Source of the DNA: Bolinopsis microptera
Taxonomy: Eukaryota > Ctenophora > Tentaculata > Lobata > Bolinopsidae
Length of the DNA: 64,000 nt
Assembly: GCF_026151205.1 (NCBI RefSeq)
Contig: NC_087080.1
Location: 14,517,337-14,581,336 of the forward strand
Direction of reading: 5' to 3'
The stretch's first letter is position 1; every line of letters starts with the position of its first letter. Made by a program: the position numbers and the translations under genes. Shown here one piece after another: positions 1,282 to 64,000 of the stretch. The notes beneath the pieces were generated by a model. That model did no database searches. It was not told the DNA's origin and worked only from the letters and a program-made list of their open reading frames with translations.

Positions 1282-1908
1282 TACTAAATATCTATTTGTT
1301 TGAAGAAAATTGTGCTGGCCGAAATTAGCGCTAAAAAACCATCCTACAGTCGGCACGCGCGGCTCACTGTCAATGGCGCACTACCTACTAGGGACCCCAG
1401 ATACACCTTACTAGACGTATTTTTGACCGTAGAATCGATTAAAAGTGGTTTCAAGATGATTAGACTGAGTTAGCGCGGTTAAAATCGCAAAAAAACGATT
1501 TTTGGGCCAAAAATAGGCCAAAAAACCATGTTTTTTGATAATTTGAGCAAGTTAATTTTGTTGGCATACTGTGCAATATCAATATGTTGCCGAATCGAGA
1601 TTCGCGAAAATTAGTCAATTCACGAATTTCTCGTAACATATTGACGAATTTGCAAAATTCCGAAGATTTTACTCAATTTGGTCACTATACTAAAAAAATG
1701 ATCGGTAATCATCCTAATTAAATCATCCTAACTTCCGAATTGTTTTAAAAAACCCCGATACGCGGATTAGATTGTTTTAAATTGTATAACTTTATTTATC
1801 CACCCCACGACTTTAAGACGTTTTCTCTCTCGTTACGATCTCAATTATTTTCCAAATTAAGGTCCGGCTTGCCCACAGCATAACTGCATTTTTATTTGGC
1901 ACTTAGGT

Positions 1909-7172: not shown

Positions 7173-8936
7173 AACTAAAAGCGATAATATACTATATATA
7201 ATGGCAACATAACAAAACTATGACCAAGCCAAATGATTAAGGATTTCCAAATCGGCCGGTGGTAAGTGGTTTAATTGATCATTTTGTGACCCAAATGTGA
7301 TACTTATATTAGGTAATTTGGTTTTGGCAGGGGACCTTAAATTGGCTAGTTTTGGTTTTGGTTTTAGTTTTGGTTTAAAGAGCTTATACTTGCCACATAT
7401 GTCCAGGTGCATTATAATAATGCAGGACTTCTAGGCAATGAGCTTGGTTGTGGGACACACTCAACTAGGGAAGTTGAGAGGCCTCAATCAAGTCTCATTT
7501 AGATATCAACAGAGTGTGAACCACTGCCAGACTTACCTTTGATTAGAGTTTGCCAGGCTCTATAAGTGTGGCAGATAGTGTCTTCTTTGTCCTATCCTTT
7601 GTCCGTGATGCTGGTAACGTACTCTTGTTGCAGGTGATGGTGACATAAACTCATTTGCATGATTGGGTCTAGAGATGGGTCGATTGTGAAGTGTGCTATA
7701 TAAATAGGTAGTTGTGATAAATAGTACTGCTCAGTACCGTAATTATAAAACCATTATCTGAGAACTTGTCTCAACATAGAAGATCTAAATGACATGAGGT
7801 CTAAACTGGGTCGATTAAAAGTGAGCTACAGATTAGCGGCTGGGAAAAACAAAGAGATGGAGATTAGTGATTAATACAGGTAATCAGTACAGGTGCTGAG
7901 TGAACGTATGGCAGACCGTAAAATCGGAAGATTAACTGATAATGACTAAAACACCCTAGAATTAAGTGCCACAACCATGAGGTTATAAAGTCAAGAGGGT
8001 CTATTTAGACTACAAGAAGATAATAAGTGGGCTGAAGCTAATAACTGGTTAACAAGTCGCAATAGAGATTGAAACATATCACAACAAAGAGGGACAAAGT
8101 GTCGAGAAAAATTAAAGTAGCCGGTAATTATCACTATGCTGGGTAAACGGACCGTGAAAACAAGGAAATTGGCTAGCGATCAAGTATTACTGTAAAATAT
8201 ATATGAGGGGCACTCAGAATTAAATTGCAGTTTACAGATCGAGCGAGTTCATACTTTCGCACCGTTTTAAGTACGAAAATGTAATGTGTGTTTTGAATAT
8301 AATAGGCGGATTTATACTAATTTTGCATTTCAACTGCGATAGTGAAGTCCCGGCCGTATAGTAGGCGTAGGCACGGGAATTAGTGAATTACACTAGTCTC
8401 TTATAATAATTCAGTTCTGGGGAAATTTCTATTCAGAGCAAATAATTCGTTAAATTTTAATTATTGTTTTATTCCAACTCCTAATTGTAGGTTTATAACC
8501 TACCAAGACGAGCGCCGATTTTGGATTTGGACTTAAGTCGACAATTGTCGACGGACTTATTTGAACAAATATTTTACGAGTATCACCCGTTAATCCAACT
8601 CCAAGATCACAAAGGTGCGCACGTTTGACATATGATCAAACTCAGACTGAAAAATGAATTATAGGAATATCTTGTAACGTAACGCTAACAACCATATTAA
8701 TTTTATAAAATATTTAAGTATTGAAACTGCATCATCATCAACAATCAATATTCAAGACAAAGTGAAACAATGGAATACCGGGTCCCGAAATTCAAAATTG
8801 TAGTCAGTGTTTGGTACTGTTCTTTTCTTTTTTTTTCTTTTTTTTTGGAAGAATATGAACAATAACATGATTCATGAATAATGAATTTTAAAAAATCTCG
8901 TCACAACTATTTCTCCCAAAACCCTGCACACTGTGA
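7173..8936. other. Gene-poor spacer
   Basis: No convincing coding exon on either strand. The ORF at 7218-7412 (minus) is a low-complexity stretch. Bases 8481-8516 and 8565-8597 are short segments shared with 43331-43365 and 44672-44704, so the right part is old repeat. A T-rich run lies at 8821-8846. Confidence 0.5.
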
Positions 8937-10316
8937 ACAGTACCGTTTCCGGTACCGGTCACAGTACCGTTCACAGTACTGGTCACAGTACCGTTCACAG
9001 TACCGTTCACAGTACCGTTCACAGTACCGTTCACAGTACTGGTCACAGTACCGTTCACAGTACCGTTCACAATACTGGTCACAGTACCGTTCACAGTACT
9101 GGTCACAGTACTGTTCACAGTACCGTTCACAGTACCGTCACAGTACCGTTCACAGTACCGTTCACGGTAACGGTCACAGTACCGTTCACAGTACCGGTCA
9201 CAGTACCGTTCACAGTAACGGTCACAGTACCGTTCACAGTACGGTCACAGTACCGTTCACAGTACCGTTCACAGTACCGTTCACAGTACCGTTCACAGTA
9301 CCGTTCACAGTACCGGTCACAGTACCGTTCACAGTACCGTTCACAGTACCGGTCACAGTACCGTTCACAGTACCGGTCACAGTACCGTTCACAGTACCGT
9401 TCACAGTACCGTTCACAGTACCGGTCACAGTACCGTTCACGGTAACGGTCACAGTACCGTTCACAGTACCGGTCACAGTACCGTTCACAGTACCGGTCAC
9501 AGTACCGTTCACAGTACCGGTCACAGTACCGTTCACAGTACTGGTCACAGTACCGTTCACAGTACTGGTCACAGTACCGTTCACAGTACTGGTCACAGTA
9601 CCGTTCACAGTACCGTTCACAGTGCTGGTCACAGTACCGTTCATAGTACCGTTCACAGTACTGGTCACAGTACCGTTCACAGTACCGTTCGCAGTACCGT
9701 TCACAGTACCGTTCGCAGTACCGTTCACAGTACCGTTCACAGTACCGTTCACAGTACTGGTCACAGTATCGTTCACAGTACCGTTCACAGTACCGTTCAC
9801 AGTACCGTTCACAGTACCGTTCACAGTACCGTTCACAGTACCGTTCACAGTATCGTTCACAGTACCGTTCACAGTACTGGTCACAGTACCGTTCACAGTA
9901 CCGTTCACAGTACTGGTCACAGTACCGTTCACAGTACCGTTCACAGTACCGTTCACAATACTGGTCACAGTACCGTTCACAGTACCGTTCACAGTACCGT
10001 TCACAGTACCGTTCACAGTACCGTTCACAGTACTGGTCACAGTACCGTTCACAGTACCGTTCACAGTACTGGTCACAGTACCGTTCACAGTACCGTTCAC
10101 AGTACTGGTCACAGTACCGTTCAGAGTACCGTTCACAGTACCGTTCACAGTACTGGTCACAGTACCGTTCACAGTACCGTTCACAGTACTGGTCACAGTA
10201 CCGTTCACAGTACCGTTCACAGTACCGTTCACAGTACTGGTCACAGTACCGTTCACAGTACCGTTCACAGTACTGGTCACAGTACCGTTCACAGTACCGT
10301 TCACAGTACTGTTAAC
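8937..10316. repeat. 12-bp minisatellite, about 115 units
   Basis: Head-to-tail 12-mers AGTACCGTTCAC with the common variant AGTACTGGTCAC and rarer AGTACCGGTCAC. A few units are shortened, shifting the register near 9137 and 9240. Because 12 is divisible by three, both strands stay open for hundreds of codons, giving artificial TVPF and TVNG repeat ORFs. Variants follow higher-order patterns such as two standard units and one variant, indicating repeated block duplication. The array begins right after the last exon I can follow of the coiled-coil gene. Confidence 0.97.
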
Positions 10317-10321
10317 ATAGT

Positions 10322-12953
10322 ACAGAGCTCCGTGAGAAGTAAAGGAAGTTAAAATATAAAATAAAAAGCTCCTTCTTTGTTTTATTTGGGCGAGGGCACT
10401 CCACGTAGAAAATCTGTTCAATGTGCGCCACTTTTCTTCGCGTAGTAGGCTGCAAGAAATTTCGATCCTTGGGTCAGCATAGGTAACTCCCAATTTGATC
10501 TGCTGATTTTCAAACTGGATATGCACTGGAATGGTAGATGGTTGAGGTTGTGCTCATCCAGTCTTGAAGAATTGTCACTCCTGTGCCTTTTAGATTTGTT
10601 GTTGGCAGCCCTGCAGCTGATCCTTCTGTGAGAGTACCGAAATTAGTAATTCAAATTGTTATTACCTTAATTTCAAAATTGAATCAAAATAAAATCCAAC
10701 GGTACATTTTTCAATTAAGTGGCTGGCCCGATGGAAATCAGGGTTCATTCTCGTTTCACAATTTTGTCTCCAATTCCTGCATTCCTACCTGGAGGATGTA
10801 CTGCCGGTCGTACAAGTTGAAGCATCTTGGAATTCAGCTTGGACTTGGAGGGCACATTCCACATCTTTTACCTCCTTGTTTATAGATGACGCTTTCATCT
10901 CAAAATCCTGTAATAAGTTGAATCATTTAAGTTATTGTTAGTGTAAATTAACGTAAAAGGACATTATTTGAACGGACATTAAAATGAGATCCTTCAGCGT
11001 CCAATTGATCTCCGTTCAAATTAAGTCCGAGGAAGGTAAAAGTTAGGTAAGCATTTAAAATTGTCTGTTTTGAAGCCATTATACAGACCAACCATCCAAC
11101 CAATCATTCTTGCAGATTCCGAGATGAAAATTCAATCAACTTTTACATTATTTCAGCTCACCTGTTTGAGATTGTCAATTTCATCCTTGTAAGCTGCTAA
11201 ATCTTCTTTAGCCCTCGTCACAGCCAGGTTTAACTCCCGCGCTAAATCATCTGCTCTTTTAGTAGCGGCTGTTAAATCCTCTTGTCTATTCAGTCGTGAC
11301 TGTAGGATCAGTGATCTCGATGTTTCGAAGGATCGCTCCTCTTTAGCCAGCTGGCGTCTTAGACCAAAAATGATGTCTTTCTGGCTCCACTTTTCCTGAG
11401 GAATAAATTCGTTATTGCATTTGCAATGAAATTGTATTTATACAGGGTGGGCCAAAAGTCAGTACCCATACGTTGGCCTTAATAGCTCCGACGTGTTTTA
11501 TATTTGAGAGCTGTTGCTTATCAGATGGCATACTGTACTTGCTGGTTCGAGGATTCCGTCGTCAAAATTTGAAAATTCGAATATTTTAGACCACGCCCAT
11601 TCAATTTTAAAACACCTATATTGTTTTCTCTGAACATGCTGAACGCCTCATTTTTGTAGAGACGGTAGATTATCAAATGTTGCATATGATCTGAAAACAT
11701 GAGGCATAACGGATTAGAAATGACGAAGTTATCAAGCATTTTCTGTATCTCGTTAACAAAATTGACTGGGTGATTATGTGACACCGTGACACGACACCTT
11801 AATTGGGCACCCTTAACAATTCCCATAATGTTTAACAGGGTGGTTAACGGGGGTCACCTAATCACGTGATTAGGTAAACCAATCACCTGATCACACGTAA
11901 TGAATAAACTCGTTATGCTTCGTATCTCGGTCATCTGAGAAGCTACAGTTCTAATTCTTTCAGGACAAACGTAATTCGAATGGCCAAACACAATTCAATA
12001 ACATTTAGCTTGATCCGACTATACAGACTATCAAATAAATGTGAAAATGAACCTCCATTTGAAAAAAATGAACGCGAATATTTTTCGAGTTGACAAATTC
12101 CTCGAACCAGTGGTGGTACTAAGTCATACCAGAAAGAAGTATTTAAATTGGGCACTCAGTGACTGAGCTATAAAGGCCAACGTATGGGTACTGACTTTTG
12201 GCCCACCCTGTACTAATCATCGTATTTTCAGAAATAATAAGGTTCGACAGCAGATTGATTAACCTTTATGATTATCCTATGATTGTTTATACTTGAACAC
12301 TATAACAATTGTTGAGCAATATATTTAATATGGTGACTGGTGGTTTGATAATGATATAAAAATAACCCTTTCACCTTTTCGAGGAGCTCTACTTTCTCTC
12401 TGAGCAGGTCATTCTCGGATGTCAAAATTTCAATCTCGTCTTTTAGAACACCTTTTTCGTTCATTTCAAACCATATCTGGCATTTATAAGTGTCCTTTTC
12501 CTCGATCAGTTGCCCCAGTTGTTGAAGAGCTACTTCTCTTCTTTGCTCTGAGTAAGAATGTTGGTCAGATCTCACTAAGTCAGTATAAACATCAAATGCT
12601 AAACAAATAAGAATGTGTGCAGCATGACTGATGACTGATAAGAGACCAAAATCTTCAAGTCGAAAATTGTCAACACAGTTTGAATATAAGCACCTAAAGA
12701 GTTGAGCTCGGCTGGTCGTCTTGTTCGAGAACATTTCCGAATAGCAGTTTGGATTGCTCTTTGGAATCCCATTGAAAGTTGAAGATATTATATTTTCAGT
12801 ATAGTAAGATTGGTGGTAGATAACTGTCGTAGGTAATTTGATAGCATACAACGAATTAACAAAGGTGGAAGTAAATATGACCCGCGTGCATTTCAGGGAT
12901 TTCAGCACATTTGTCGCGCGCGATTTTGTTCGCCATGACAATGCAACCAACAC
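10322..12953 (-). CDS. Unrecognised coiled-coil protein gene (partial model)
   Basis: Phase-consistent exons on the minus strand: one ending at 12375 (its 5' limit is uncertain; the frame is open back to 12953), then 11395-11162, 10907-10789, 10625-10579, and one starting at 10525. The best parts are long heptad helices: exon 1 ends LREKVELLEK, and the 78-codon second exon is all charged helix (begins EKWSQKDIIF, ends EIDNLKQ). The final exon reads HIQFENQQIKLGVTYADP and stays open into the minisatellite, so the true C-terminus is unclear. A 768-bp transposon sits in the first intron. I do not recognise the family. Whether the residues upstream of the coiled coil (12600-12953) are coding is doubtful. 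Confidence 0.55.
11443..12210. mobile_element. Mariner/Tc1-like non-autonomous element in an intron
   Basis: TIRs start CAGGGTGGGCCAAAAGTCAG and extend about 40 bp; the right end is the complement, ending 12210. TA dinucleotides flank both ends (11441-11442, 12211-12212), the duplication typical of Tc1/mariner elements. Internal ORFs of 101 and 70 codons do not resemble a transposase. It lies wholly within an intron of the coiled-coil gene. Confidence 0.85.
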
Positions 12954-56309: not shown

Positions 56310-59300
56310 TCACAGGGTATACTGGGAACTCTCCCTGGAAATGGAGTCTTCTGCATCCTCTTCCTCTCGGAATGTGTAGGGAGTGTTGCTAACTCTCTCT
56401 GAGTCGTACGTGCTTGCCTGGAGGGGAATTTGTATGTTGGCATTTGATAATATTGAAATTGTAGATTAGATGATATGCTTAATATTGCACGGTCTGTTGG
56501 CACAGAAATATGTGATCACCTACTCTCAATTTTCCCACTTAAGTTGTGTAAATTTTATCTACTAATGTAATCTGTATGCACAATCCACTACAGTAAACTG
56601 GATACATTGCATGCCAACAGTTGTAACACGTGTTTCATGCTTGTCAATGTCTCAGAGAGGATTGTTACTGAGTATACAGATGTACTTATTAATTAATGTG
56701 GCAAGCAATGGACGGCAAATAAGAATATCTTATGTAACGGAATAATGAATACCTATGCTTATATTATTAATACAATGATTTCTGTTGAATATTCTGGTGT
56801 GACCCGTGTACTGTCGGTGTACTGGTTTTGAGACTCATGGAATGATCATGTACCTGTGTACGGGGAGGAAGTATTGATAAACTGGGTACATTCTGTTCCA
56901 GAGTGAATGAGCTCTTCATACTTGGGTCAGTGCCCCTGATGTCTTCCAGAAGAGAGGATCTCTGTTGCAAACATTCACTTCTTACTTGATTGTATCTCTT
57001 TTGAATCTGAAATGAAAGTATCGGAGTTAAATTGTATCCGGCAAGTATTGTTTCCCTATTTGGGACAACATTACTAAAGTAAGGAAGCAGCTCTAAGACA
57101 TAGCATATCGTATAGCTAGGAGGGTTTGGAAAACATTACCTGATCCAACAGTCTTCGACCCTGCTTCTTCGTCCTAGTATTTTCACTGGCGATATAGTCG
57201 CCGAGACCGCCTTCTAGAGCGACGTTTTGATTCCTTATCATTCGCAATCCATCATTCAGGGGTTTATCCTTGTCTATTTTCTTGCCCTTTGGAACCAGAC
57301 GTTTTCCCTGACCGAATAAAGTGTTAAGAATTCTCGTTATTTTAAACTTGTTAGGAAAACCATGTGGATTGTTGCCATAGCAACTGAAATTTCAAATTGT
57401 TGAAAAGTTAGACTTTTCTTACTGCGAGAACAAAAATATCCGCGCGTTACAGATCGTCAACGCGCGGCGCATTGCCTCAAAGTCATGTTATACCTTGCAA
57501 GACTTGTAGATATGCTTCCTTGGAAGTACTTCTGAGTTACAAACAGGTTTATAGATGTCGGGTAGGATCATAGTCTTTTGTAGTGCTTTCCTGAGGGAAC
57601 TTACAGCACTCTGAAATAGAAAAAAAGTATCAACAATTATACATAAGTTTGAATTCACGGCAATCGTCAACAATTAGGACACTAAAAATATCATTCTCAA
57701 GTCCAAAACATAGATAAACCTGTATATGTTCTGGGATATAGTCGTTGGGGTCGTCATCAACGTCAACAAGATCTTCGAAACCCTGAGATATGTACGATTC
57801 ACTCCGAGGGTAAAATAAAATTACACGCATCAAACAAAAAGGTGCAAAATAAAATCATACACATGAAACAAAAACATGAACCTCTTCGAATGACACAAAT
57901 TTGTAAATGTGACCTGATATTAGTCTACCTTGTATCTATCAGGAATATGAACAGTGCTGGCGGTATAAGACAGTATATCAGGCTCACTTTCTTCTTCATC
58001 CTCCTCTTCTGCCTCCTGATCGTCCACTTGAGTCAAAAACACGCCCTCGTCAGGAGGCCCTGTTCAGGAGCCTCTTTCTGGGCTTCAGGAAGAGATACAG
58101 AGGGAGAAATGGGAGGCACTGAGGATCCTGAAGTTCATTTAGTTAGAAACATTTTGGGGTGGAACATTCTATGCATTCGTTTAATAGGGCAAGAGCGCTG
58201 AAATTAGATAATTATTAGATTTTGAATGATTAGTGAGTTAAAGGGAAAACCAGCAGTAGTAGGTGGAAGAGCAAGGGAAGGAGCAGACTCCAGGGTTAGC
58301 AACTCTGGGTGGGGCTGTCTGGGCAGAGGTCGAGGGGGTTCCTTGATGCGGCGGGTTCCTGCGCTTACTGTAACAGAGGGAGGCTTCTTCACTTTGGAGG
58401 GTGGGTTTCTGATGATGGTGATCCCGTTGCGGAGGGTGAGTTCGTGGGTGAGAAGAATAGGGAGACCTCGACATTGGGTTATTACTGGGTTATTGTGTAG
58501 GACTAGTTGGCAGAGTTTGGGCCACAGTGCACACGCTAACACTCCCTCTTCTTCTGAGATCTGGAATAGAGTTCTGGGTAAGTTGTAAGTTATCTTTCAA
58601 AGTAAAAGATACATGCTTTGGTTTGTAATGTGAGATCTGAGGATGAATTTTAGCCTTTGCTTAAGTAGCCTTGCACAGCTTTGGTGATGTGTGTTTTTGT
58701 TTTGTGTCGAGCAAATATGCTTCGTTCGCCTCCGTGAGATGTGGCGCTTACCAATTAACAATTAACATAAATACAAATCATAAATTTAGTTACAATTTTT
58801 GAACTTGTCAGCTTTAATGCTAAACGGTAGCCCGAATACTAGCAAAACTTGAAGTTTCTTACCACTTATTATATAATAACTTCATGTCAACCTGGAATAC
58901 TTTGTTAAGACGTTCAAATATAGGGTTATACTATCATAGCCAGCTTTTAAGTATTCAAATTGAATTTTGTTATGTTTAGTTTAATTAAGCTATTTATTTG
59001 TGCTAAATTAAAATTAACATTTATCTAAACTATTTATATTGATCAGTTAGATGTAATTAACTCCAATCGTTGGCGTTATTTCGCTAATATAATATCAGCT
59101 GGAGAAGCTGAACTAATGAGTACGCACCACGTTATCAGATAAGATAAGAGTACTCACCACGTTATCAGATAAGATAAGAGTACTCACCACGTTATCAGAT
59201 AAGATAAGAGTACTCACCACGTTATCAGATAAGATAAGAGTACTCACCACGTTATCAGATAAGATAAGAGTACTCACCACGTTATCAGATAAGATAAGAG

Positions 59301-62300
59301 TACTCACCACGTTATCAGATAAGATAAGAGTACTCACCACGTTATCAGATAAGATAAGAGTACTCACCACGTTATCAGATAAGATAAGAGTACTCACCAC
59401 GTTATCAGATAAGATAAGAGTACTCACCACGTTATCAGATAAGATAAGAGTACTCACCACGTTATCAGATAAGATAAGAGTACTCACCACGTTATCAGAT
59501 AAGATAAGAGTCTGCAGCTGAGGGAACGGTTGCTGAAGCGGCATGGGCGCAGTCTGGTACATTGTCTCTGCTGTTGACTTACCCTCGCTAATCTGGGGGA
59601 GCTGGTAATGTGAACGTTAGTACTGTGTAAAGGAGTTAGTACTGTGTAAAGGAGTTAGTACTGTGTAAAGGATTTTTAGGGCCGAGGGAAGATTCTGACT
59701 GTAAGGTTCCGGGCGGACTGCTGAGCTTTTTGTGGCTACGTTTATAAAGTTATAACGAGAGGCTCTTCGTGGATTATAATTATATAATGACAGACAGATA
59801 TATGCACAAAAGGTTGATGATATAATGATATACTTATTTCAAACAAGTGGAACACTTGATTATTTTAATATAACGAAGAATTAGGTCTAGAAGCTCATGA
59901 CAATTATTTTATTTATATAACCTTAATTTAAAACAAAAAGTTAATTAACAGACCAGATAGGCGTCGACATTGAGTTTGTTTTTTCTGATGGCATCAGGAC
60001 TATCGGACTTGTTCATGTCCCGTTCCATCATTCCACTCTTAACACTTCCTCCCGGAAATGCGCTGAATATTTAATTAGATCTTATTATTATTCGACATGA
60101 ATTGTTTTTGAACGAATATTTTGTGGTTGTGTTGATTTATTAATACAGCTGGTTGGTCCCGAAATGTTACGGAAGCCTGAGCATCAATATATGATCGAAC
60201 TCTGAATATCATAGTATCGGTTAATAATGGCCAACTCTCTGTAACTAAATATTCAATTATAAAATATTCAACAAAGATGTTTCCCCACCTGCTACTCCCC
60301 ACATGAACTATTTGTTCTCGACTCAGGGAGGCCGGGGAGTCTCCCCTGGACACCCCTGTCTCAATGTCCTCCTCTTCTGGACGTGAGATTGGTTTCTTAT
60401 CTCGGATTGTTGGGGTTTCGTCCTCAAGATCTGGGGTACTGATCTCTGATTCGGGGGTATCGTCTTCCAGCACATCAGGCGAGTCCTCCTGCAGAAAGAA
60501 ATAATTATAATAATAATTTAAAAGTTTAAACTGGCTTTAAATTTTATTGTCTCTTTTAATAGTTTTGATAATTTGTTTTCTTTTTCAAGAAACTTGGGAT
60601 AACGGTAAAATACTTATAATCGCACTTTTTTCGGCCAAGTTTTCAAATCAACAATTTTACTTACACTATTGTCGTCTTTTCCAGGTAAAACATCGATCAG
60701 CTTTTTGGGTGTCTTGGTTTGGATTGGAGTTATTTTGCTTTTCGTCAAACCAAACTCCGAGTTTGAAATTTCTTGCTTCATTTTCTGACGGGGTTACTAC
60801 ATCATCAAAAGATCAACTAATAGAAACAAAGGGCGTTTCAAAAGTCTTGAACAATTTATTTACTGAATAAATTTGTATCCATTTGTCCAAACTTGATTGT
60901 GTTATTAATTGGTATTTTTAAGGTTTAATGGCAACTTCTAAATTTTATTTAAGTATTACGATATGCAAATATCACCTGTTAATTAATCACCTGTTGATTA
61001 ATCACCTGTTAATTAATCACCTGTTAATTAATCACCTGTTAATTAATCACCTGTTGATTAATCACCTATTAATTAATCACCTGTTAATTAATCACCTGTT
61101 AATTAATTACCTGTTAATTAATCACCTGTTAATTAATCACCTGAGAGTTAGCGGAGGATCTCTGAGACTTGGTCCGAGTAGACTTTGCGGACTTGTTCTG
61201 TGCTTTAAAGTCCTCGACATGAGCTATTGCAGAACCCAACACCCGTAAATGAGGTATGTAGTAGATGTGATTCTTAGCAAGGTTCAAGTACTTCAACCTT
61301 AAAACGTGTATTTTAGGGCTCATGTCTCATTGATAAAGTGATAAGTATTTAATTGTACTACCAACCAATCTCTAGTATTTCTCATCATGTTTTCAGAGTT
61401 AAACTGATGTGATTCAATATTAATTCGTTCGGGATCTTAATGATACCCACTCGTCAATTTCAAGCTGAAGGTCGAAGAAATAAAGATAAAATGTCCAGGC
61501 TTACTTTTTGAGAGCCCCCAGAGTGGCGAAGGTAGAGAGGTCACAGAGATGATTGTTGTCTAAATACAATTCCTCCAGGTTGGCAAACCTCTGGTAAATC
61601 TGCTTCTCATTATCAACTGAAATAGAGGGAGAGGTTAATTTAGAGTTAAGGGGGGCTCACTATGATTTGTTTTCGAGATAGCACTTCGTGGACAATTTCG
61701 AGATTTTGAGATATGTTGTAGAGCTCAATCTAAATATTCGAATGCTTTTGTCCCCACCGAAAAAAAAGTTTCCCATCTGTAGATATCGCGCGTCAAATTT
61801 TGAGGTTTACCTATTGTAAACCTATTGTAAATGAAAACTTCAACTGCAATTTTGTTTAAAATCTATCTTCTTTTACAGTTTACGACATGGGATCTTGGCA
61901 ACAGTGTTTGTCAAGGTCTTTTCCAATAGTATAATGTGCCGATTTTTGATTTTTTGTGGGGTGGTGTGCGAGCGTCAGGTAGTACGTGGTCTGCCAACTG
62001 GCAAAAAATATTTTTTCGACCTCGGACCCCCCCCCCCCCCTGTGACCTTAACTGTGTGTTAACAGTGCGTTATGTGTCCGTCTACGTATAACCGAATTGC
62101 CCTAACTTAGCTAGGCTGTTATTGGAAAATATTGAGTGTCTTCTATTATTTACTCTTACCTAAAACATTCTCTCATTCGCAACAAATACTTTAGCACATA
62201 CCAAAGTTCCCAACCTTTGTAGTTGTACAACTCAAAGCATATTATAGACATCATTGCGAATTAACTCATCCAAGGAAACTATGAAAGCTGACAATCAACT

Positions 62301-64000
62301 GTAATGTCTTCCGAGTGTCAAATGTCTAGAGCTGTGAGCACTGATCAGACTGAGTCTGATACATTGTTCTTTTTGTTCTAAAACACAAAGATACAAATTT
62401 AATACTCGACTTAGTGACTCGGCTGATAATGAAGCAGTTGAGGTTGCTTGTGTTTGTCGTACGCTCTTTTCAGAATGGCCACTGTCAAGAACAAATGGGA
62501 CGACAAAACTTACAATCAGCCCAAATATAAATATAGGGTCTTCAATTTAATTATAACTCTAAAATTAAAATTAAATCAAAGTCTATAACAGAACATTAAA
62601 TACCTGCTGGGTATGCCATGTTTGACGGTAGAGTTTTAATCTCGTTAGCTGTTAATACCAGAACTCTCAGTCTCTCAATGAGCCCTATGTTCAGTATTCC
62701 ACTATGTGATATCTGAAGAGTTTAGTGAGGTTACTACCATTCAGACGTTTTGGTTATATTCACAAAACTGAATTGCACTGCTCACAAAAGTTGAGAGGAC
62801 ATTAGAGTTACAAGAGTTACAATAGTTACAAGAGTTACAAGAGTTACAAGAGTTACACATTAATAAGATTTAGTATTTATTGTAAACTCTCCCCCAATAA
62901 CCTGATTGTAAGACAGATCCAAAGTGTCGAGATGTAGGAAGTGGTTCGGTGACAGTTTAACTTTACTCAAACTGTTAAACTGGAACTGAATCTCCCGAAC
63001 CATGGGAAACGAGGAGAGACACTGAAAATAATGTTATTATCAGTAGTAATTTAGTAGAAGTTATCATAATATTTTTTTTTTTTTAATAAAAAAAAATCAT
63101 AATATTTCAATACGTACTATCATGACACTATTTGCCATCAATCAATTCGACGGTTCTGAAAAGATGACAAATGATAACCGGAAAATAAAAACTAAAAAGT
63201 CAGATCTTAATTGATTATTATTGTGAGTTATACCTCCAACTTCAAATTGTTTTCGGCTGCGTTGATGTGGAACAAGTTGATGAATAAGTCAAAATCATCT
63301 TCCTTAGCCGCATTCAAACCTGTAAGAAGAATGTTCAATGTTTTATAGGACTAGAAGTATTATATTTTTGTTCTTAAATTGCTTAGAATTGTATGCAGTG
63401 AAGCATGATATACAAGAAGTGAAACAGCGATGCAATATCAGATTCGGTAAACAACTAAAACCAATGAAGGTGCCAAGCTTGATTGTTACTTCCACAATAT
63501 CTGAGCTTCTAGACTCTTCCAAATCCATCGCTCATAATAATCAAACCGAACAGTACCTTGGTTGGAGATATCTATACTACAGATATCTTGTGGGTCGTCT
63601 AACTTAGCACAGTTCAGTAGGTAGTACCCGTCCAATATCTTCTCCCCTAACTGTTTCTCAGCCTCCTGTGACTCCTTGCATTATTTTATCAGTTCCCCGA
63701 TTAATAACAATAGTTTTGGTATTATTAAACACGGACGAGACATCAACAGAAACGTTCATATTCCGTAAAACTCGGAACAGTTTCAGTCCCTAAACATAAT
63801 AATTTCTCCGTGATGCACGAACAAGGTATTACCAACCTGTTGCCTATGCTGGATGTAGTCCTGGTCGTAGAGGAGGAAGCTGTGATACCTCCGGTGTTGG
63901 GCTTCCTGGTGCTCTACCAGCCATGCTCCACCTGGGATAGAGAGTTTCAACTAAACTATATGTTCTCTCTCAGTTACCTTCTTGACTACAGAGGTTATTT
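56310..64000 (-). CDS. XRRA1: X-ray radiation resistance-associated protein 1-like, leucine-rich repeat protein (5' partial)
   Basis: Nineteen exons, all phase-consistent: >64000-63978, 63931-63837, 63674-63557, 63319-63234, 63021-62902, 62712-62604, 61616-61505, 61297-61141, 60784-60665, 60488-60289, 60062-59954, 59601-59488, 58560-58251, 58059-57929, 57782-57720, 57610-57494, 57307-57140, 57006-56854, 56417-56310; about 804 codons here (human about 790). The order matches XRRA1: GAWLVEH; ILDGYYLLN...DDPQDI; FINLFHINAAENNLKLE; LRRs such as LDTLDLSYNQ, LRVLVLTANEIKTLP, LEELYLDNNHL, LKYLNLAKNHIYYIP; an acidic Ser/Thr linker; FPQLQTLILSDN; EEEGVLACALWPKL...LHNNP. The molecular role of XRRA1 is poorly known. 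Exons 8 and 12 end in tandem-repeated splice donors. The initiator exon lies beyond the window. Confidence 0.92.
59121..59510. repeat. 30-bp tandem array, 13 copies, spanning the XRRA1 exon 12 donor
   Basis: On the minus strand each unit encodes LILSDNVVST and contains GTG|GTGAGTAC, a strong 5' splice site. The copy nearest the exon body is the normal exon end. Units are essentially identical except the last (59121), whose donor is GTGCGT. The frame stays open through all copies and a little beyond. Confidence 0.97.
59616..59673. repeat. 19-bp tandem repeat (x3) upstream of the XRRA1 exon 12 acceptor
   Basis: Minus-strand unit TCCTTTACACAGTACTAAC contains an acceptor-like TTTACACAG and the branch-point-like TACTAAC. 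The array ends about 15 nt before the exon 12 acceptor. Confidence 0.9.
60971..61143. repeat. 15-bp tandem array, about 11 copies, at the XRRA1 exon 8 donor
   Basis: On the minus strand exon 8 ends TCTCAG|GTGATTAATTAA, and the unit CAGGTGATTAATTAA is then repeated through the start of intron 8 with a few G/A variants. Each unit repeats the CAG|GTGATT context but brings an in-frame stop. Confidence 0.95.
62803..62857. repeat. 9-bp tandem repeat in XRRA1 intron 5
   Basis: Six copies of AGAGTTACA with one variant. Confidence 0.9.

Follow-up and report, generated by a model that had tools for sequence, protein, structure and literature searches.

What becomes of splicing when an exon ends in thirteen copies of its own 5' splice site? 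The question is raised by a locus of the ctenophore Bolinopsis microptera that lies within a stretch of 64,000 nucleotides (NCBI RefSeq assembly GCF_026151205.1, contig NC_087080.1, positions 14,517,337 to 14,581,336 of the forward strand), analyzed here as a whole and hereafter called the window. On its minus strand, exon 12 of a leucine-rich repeat (LRR) gene runs into a tandem array of 30-bp units, each consisting of the last 24 nucleotides of the exon followed by the donor GTGAGT. Judging from the sequence of this array and of similar arrays in the same genome, we consider it likely that a recent, near-neutral minisatellite captured a donor, that the exon-side copy of this donor dominates, and that the downstream copies are decoys or minor sites.

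The exon 12 array and its gene

Tandem Repeats Finder identifies positions 59118-59511 of the window as a tandem repeat with a period of 30, 13.1 copies and 99% matches, which places the array among minisatellites, that is, head-to-tail units of about 10-100 bp. When the units are cut in register, 12 of the 13 agree in every letter, and a single substitution in the thirteenth, on the intron side, turns GTGAGT into GTGCGT. We use the register 59122-59511; the earlier coordinates, 59121-59510, describe the same array offset by one. GT dinucleotides recur every 30 positions, from 59487 down to 59127, such that 12 GTGAGT sites and one GTGCGT precede exon 13, an arrangement of competing 5' splice sites in the usual sense (several consensus-like donors facing one acceptor). 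The calculated pairing of the exon 12 donor with U1, -10.6 kcal/mol, ranks second among the 12 donors of the gene that were examined and is the same for all 12 GTGAGT copies, with -6.2 kcal/mol for the 13th. A 60-base query from the array matched the 264.65-Mb genome at exon 12 only, in a search that scores the best candidates only. The first-pass annotation, made from the letters of the window, had described 13 in-register copies of a unit that reaches from the final coding bases of the exon into the donor, with GTGAGT retained in 12 of them, and all of this holds, as does its reading of the expansion as recent, because the units are nearly identical.

The identity of 12 of the 13 units would also be expected if the assembler had inflated or homogenized the array, the true copy number being much smaller or one. 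We regard such an artefact as very unlikely given that one copy differs, that 390 bp is a short distance for a modern long read, and that other places in the genome have arrays of this kind whose units show many variants.

The host is an LRR gene by its matches to the Pfam families LRR_4 (E 3.5e-10) and LRR_9 (E 1.3e-8), both above the cut-off, and it is probably XRRA1, as the first-pass annotation had it, the library searches having returned no gene name. The gene model was built by hand, with exon 1 in the adjoining stretch and exons 2-13 in the window (Table 1); the phase is consistent at each junction used, all donors are GT, and all acceptors are AG. Exon 12 follows an acceptor reading ...CCCCCAG and ends in ...LQTLILSDNV at 59488, from which it joins exon 13 (ISEEEGVLACALWPKLCQLVLHNNPV...) in phase 0. 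The introns flanking exon 12 span 361 and 927 nt, and 9 of the 11 introns measured in the gene are short (162-361 nt).

The acceptor side of exon 12 is multiplied as well: just upstream of the acceptor, intron 11 holds three exact copies of a 19-bp unit (59616..59672, minus strand), each containing CACAG and the branch-point-like motif TACTAAC.

Table 1. Features of the LRR gene in window coordinates, and the donor arrays inspected elsewhere in the genome
Feature	Position	Strand	Remarks
30-bp array, 13 units	59122..59511	-	each unit 24 nt of exon end + GTGAGT
First (exon-side) donor GTGAGT	59482..59487	-	
Twelfth, last GTGAGT donor	59152..59157	-	
Thirteenth site	59122..59127	-	weakened to GTGCGT
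Exon 12, spliced at the first donor	59488..59592	-	105 nt, phase 0 at both ends
Exon 13, start	58366..58560	-	ISEEEG...; 58366 is where the reading ended, not the 3' end of the exon
Exon 8	61141..61297	-	
Donor array at the end of exon 8	60971..61143	-	15-bp unit GTGATTAATTAACAG, reads VIN-stop in frame
LRR gene, exons 2 to 13 (part)	58366..63931	-	hand-built model
LRR gene, exon 1	upstream, stretch L007, ~1361-1463		read by eye
Arrays at coding-like exon donors			L032, L039, L044, L046, L050, L051, L059, L060, L064, L065
Arrays non-coding or unclear			L036, L047, L048, L049, L052, L057, L058, L061, L062, L063, L066
Arrays with upstream edge not reached			L009, L056, L067

Reading frame through the array

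Read on through the array, exon 12 stays open for 155 codons up to the 13th GT, gaining ten residues (LILSDNVVST) per unit, and a stop (VVRTH-stop, read by eye) appears in the bases just past that site. Splicing at any of the 12 downstream sites would leave the exon open and the frame intact, which bears out the initial observation that the period preserves the frame without a stop. Little beyond a period divisible by 3 is needed for this openness: 24 of the 30 unit bases are exon sequence that was translated in this frame before, and the remaining six supply Val-Ser, GTGAGT being at phase 0. Among 11,154 simulated donor-spanning duplications (the 11 donors of exons 2-12, periods of 12-50, offsets that re-create the donor), 18% produced an open in-frame ladder, and for exon 12, where the intron bases past +6 are the array itself, the proportion was 32%. 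The array at the end of exon 8 of the same gene behaves differently, most of its 15-bp units carrying CAG/GTGATT together with an in-frame TAA; its sites number 11 in the final frame count and 12 by another rule.

The ten-residue block had been described as close to a short LRR core. The resemblance is apparent by eye, but the extended exon 12 frame (155 aa) matches no Pfam LRR model at E values up to 1, and an LRR identity of the added blocks is unsupported.

The open frame, the equal U1 pairing of 12 donors, and a first stop that comes only past the 13th site are what one would expect if many of the strong donors were used, giving rise to proteins lengthened by 0 to 12 LILSDNVVST blocks. Such a ladder seems to us unlikely. 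Simulated duplications come out open by chance at the frequencies given above, the donor array at exon 8 does not stay open, homology backs the first donor in two other genes discussed below, minigenes with identical donors splice at the upstream one only, according to an excerpt of PMC9225289, and no LRR model recognizes the extended frame. What stands of the ladder proposed in the first-pass annotation is that the sequence permits it; the other arrays of the genome favor first-donor use and near-neutral drift. Hardly more probable, and if anything a little less so, is its elaboration as a variable number tandem repeat (VNTR) read out by splicing, in which one pre-mRNA with a dozen equal donors would yield a graded ladder of LRR proteins whose range of lengths also varies between individuals with the length of the array.

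The units are self-complementary and might fold into a long hairpin that hides donors and regulates splicing. The RNA of exon 12 and the array indeed folds better than its dinucleotide shuffles (z -8.8, with 0 of 100 folding as well), but when shuffled units were tiled 13 times, 15 of 300 dinucleotide-preserving controls (z -1.7) and 21 of 300 mononucleotide controls (z -1.6) folded as well, which indicates that most of the fold is to be expected of any tandem array. The tiled-unit control led us to reject RNA structure as the function of the array, an explanation that we rate as extremely improbable. For the hairpin of the array DNA, the z value of -9.8 is against plain shuffles only.

Donor arrays elsewhere and the choice of donor

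When the genome was scanned for donor words occurring three times in close succession, the matches listed contained 25 arrays, which are not a random sample. We inspected 24 of these, leaving out a simple GTGA repeat (L031): 10 are located at the donors of coding-like exons, 11 are non-coding or unclear, and for 3 the upstream edge was not reached (Table 1). Seven of the arrays at coding-like exons (L044, L046, L050, L051, L059, L064 and L065) share the anatomy of exon 12, exon end plus donor: of the final 24 bases of the exon, 21 to 24 recur in the next copy. No more than 6 to 8 of these bases recur in exon 8, L039 and L060, where the unit is essentially intron, starting at the donor; L032, with 14 of 24, is intermediate. 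The number of sites varies with the matching rule and the stretch fetched (7 versus 10 for L046, 58 versus 55 for L050), and the L059 array extends past the stretch fetched.

Within the stretches examined, 1 of the 154 downstream sites in the 11 other donor arrays (exon 8 and the ten at coding-like exons) is open and in frame, namely, the second site of L060. Because of this count, the first donor should carry most of the splicing in those genes that stay functional. In a homeobox gene (L051 and L053, C10:4506200-4510000), the homeodomain intron opens with 21 near-identical GTAAGT donors at a period of 35. Joining the first donor to the next exon (VWFQNRRAK...) restores positions 1-57 of the 57 of the Pfam Homeodomain (E 4.4e-23); the last donor, although only 71 nt from the acceptor, would leave no complete homeodomain. 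An importin-7-like gene (L044, C4:3730100) has 4 donors at a period of 41; its exon alone found no library match, and with the following exon attached at the first donor, the product aligned with Xenopus importin-7 across the junction (E 7.7e-9). By the logic of coding, these two genes, if they work, would use the first donor most of the time. Among the remaining coding-like exons, a WD40-like one (L046) matches WDR62/MABP1 with an E value of 8e-5, under the Pfam curated cut-off, L039 has a weak F5/8 type C match (E 0.12, below the cut-off), L050, L059, L032 and L064 had no match in the library searches, and L060 and L065 were not searched. Pfam or PDB support thus extends to three of the ten exons, strong for L051, for L044 only when joined, and below the cut-off for L046.

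Several of the arrays have features of their own. L050, with L055 (C10:1534600-1538500), comprises 55 or 58 donor copies, depending on the rule, with a period of 32, after a short exon that looks Ig-like. L064 and L065 (C9:1817500 and C9:1884500) are near-identical gene copies with a cysteine-rich exon, each ending in a 34-bp donor array. L067 (C12:11278204 to beyond 11285200) is a very long 44-bp array, its upstream edge not reached, whose unit contains two donor-like words, CAG/GTGAGT and AAG/GTAAGT. In L048 (C8:7267900-7269300), head-to-tail 37-bp units each resemble a full mini-intron, GTAAGT...TTATTTCAG.

At exon 12, splicing from the first donor connects the exon to exon 13 in phase 0 and makes the shortest LRR protein, and the other donors keep the phase too. 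The probable use of the first donor here fits a published experiment on minigenes with two donors: in the accessible part of PMC9225289, two identical CAG/guaagu donors between flanking introns of 365 nt were resolved exclusively in favor of the upstream donor in all five minigenes transfected, and when both donors were weakened, larger exon constructs were preferentially skipped and smaller ones retained the upstream donor. The opposite choice would be the donor at 59157, the strong donor nearest to the 3' splice site, and would result in a normal protein with 11 extra blocks. It draws on the rule, reported in the same excerpt, that short introns favor the intron-proximal site, on the predominance of short introns in this gene, and on the preservation of the frame at exon 12. 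Applied to the homeobox and importin-7-like genes, this rule would ruin their proteins, the introns flanking exon 12 itself are 361 and 927 nt long, and the exon would lengthen from 105 to 435 nt where shorter exons are preferred (PMC9225289, same excerpt). We therefore consider a win of the intron-side donor quite unlikely.

Dominance of the first donor nevertheless has to be weighed against several observations. Our view of donor use draws on coding logic and a published minigene test, and nonsense-mediated decay might allow genes with ruinous downstream donors to tolerate much mis-splicing. Library searches support only 3 of the 10 additional exons. Short introns are reported to favor the intron-side donor (PMC9225289, in the part available), and 9 of the 11 introns measured in the LRR gene are short. 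Among 4,171 human events described in that part of the source, the downstream donor was preferred in about 60%, and the upstream donor reached 60% only after matching for strength; moreover, an excerpt of PMC5861446 reports that U1 can occupy both of two alternative donors although one is used.

The abundance of the arrays bears on their capture by chance and may also count, to a degree, against our interpretation. GTGAGT triples gave 11,684 rows compared to 7,637 for the reversed word, and three further words exceeded their controls by 431 to 0 (CAGGTAAGT), 432 to 0 (AAGGTAAGT) and 238 to 7 (CAGGTGAGT), in rows that include overlaps within long arrays, so that raw rows overstate the numbers of arrays. 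Counted by array on contigs C1-C10, CAGGTAAGT forms at least 9 among the matches listed, compared to 5 for the scrambled word CAAGGTAGT, for which the complete list comprises 7 arrays genome-wide (43 rows). As single words, the two occur 2,462 and 1,393 times, respectively, and their array yield is alike, whereas two reversed words, present 1,212 and 2,134 times as single words, yielded 0 and 3 rows of triples. Taken together, the three controls are compatible with a possible excess of arrays at the donor word that is about twofold or somewhat larger. Donor words may accordingly be somewhat commoner in arrays than control words, which would be unexpected under pure chance capture.

Origin of the arrays and what they offer

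The founding event would have been a short tandem duplication that crossed the exon 12 donor, the probable ends being the four-base matches ACTC at exon position -24 and intron position +7. ACTC occupies -24 to -21 of the exon, and the intron past the last copy starts with GTGCGTACTC, a match 30 bp apart; the homeobox array gives a like hint, its exon containing CTAAGTCCCTC and the donor of its final copy GTAAGTCCCTC. Subsequent growth to 13 units may have been that of an ordinary minisatellite. With exon end and donor united in each unit, every copy would re-create the donor while the first stays at the old exon end, and a spliceosome that mostly picks the first, exon-side donor would produce the normal protein and discard the other 12 units as intron. 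Such a duplication would be nearly invisible to selection, and arrays could then persist even where their downstream donors would ruin the protein. At exon 12, the downstream donors would be harmless by chance, so that longer products might be tolerated at a low level.

The array resembles several known systems without coinciding with any of them. Competing 5' splice sites, as treated in the accessible part of PMC9225289, likewise present several equal donors to a single 3' splice site, but those minigenes carry two identical donors, whereas 12 strong ones form a natural array here, and L050 has 58 sites. Intron gain by tandem duplication, as outlined in excerpts of PMC4974935 and PMC2891723, shares the short tandem duplication with splice signals; in fission yeast genes cited in the former, a 24-bp AGGT segment is present in several tandem copies, with an intron spanning four. 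In our case, the duplicated piece spans an existing exon-intron border, and no new intron is needed. The exon 12 unit, which reads GTG/GTGAGT, lacks an AG/GT that could act as acceptor and donor alike; CAG/GT is present in the exon 8 unit. Coding and intronic minisatellites (VNTRs) have the same head-to-tail, near-identical 30-bp units, but here the array straddles a splice donor, so that the coding status of a unit hinges on splicing. Repeats have been described in the introns of earthworm metallothionein genes (PMC12783039, in the part available). Our literature search for minisatellites or tandem duplications at donors, a few queries over open-licence titles and the openings of abstracts and hence no proof of absence, found no case of a donor amplified many times in an array.

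Elsewhere in the window, the region 8881-10526 has a 12-bp unit in about 115 copies (8937-10317) that is open on both strands, with open reading frames of 479 codons (TVPF repeats) on the plus strand and 430 codons (VNGT repeats) on the minus strand.

The protein ladder is allowed by the sequence alone, and it is the set of arrays as a whole that is the interesting object. The choice among equal 5' splice sites is usually tested with pairs of donors. This genome offers natural series in which near-identical donors number up to dozens, in genes whose protein stays intact under only one choice, and the LRR gene, with its exon 12 array, is the one in which every choice is harmless. The arrays are thus a natural test of donor choice, and they show how donors might multiply without harm, a possible first step in shifting the border of an exon.

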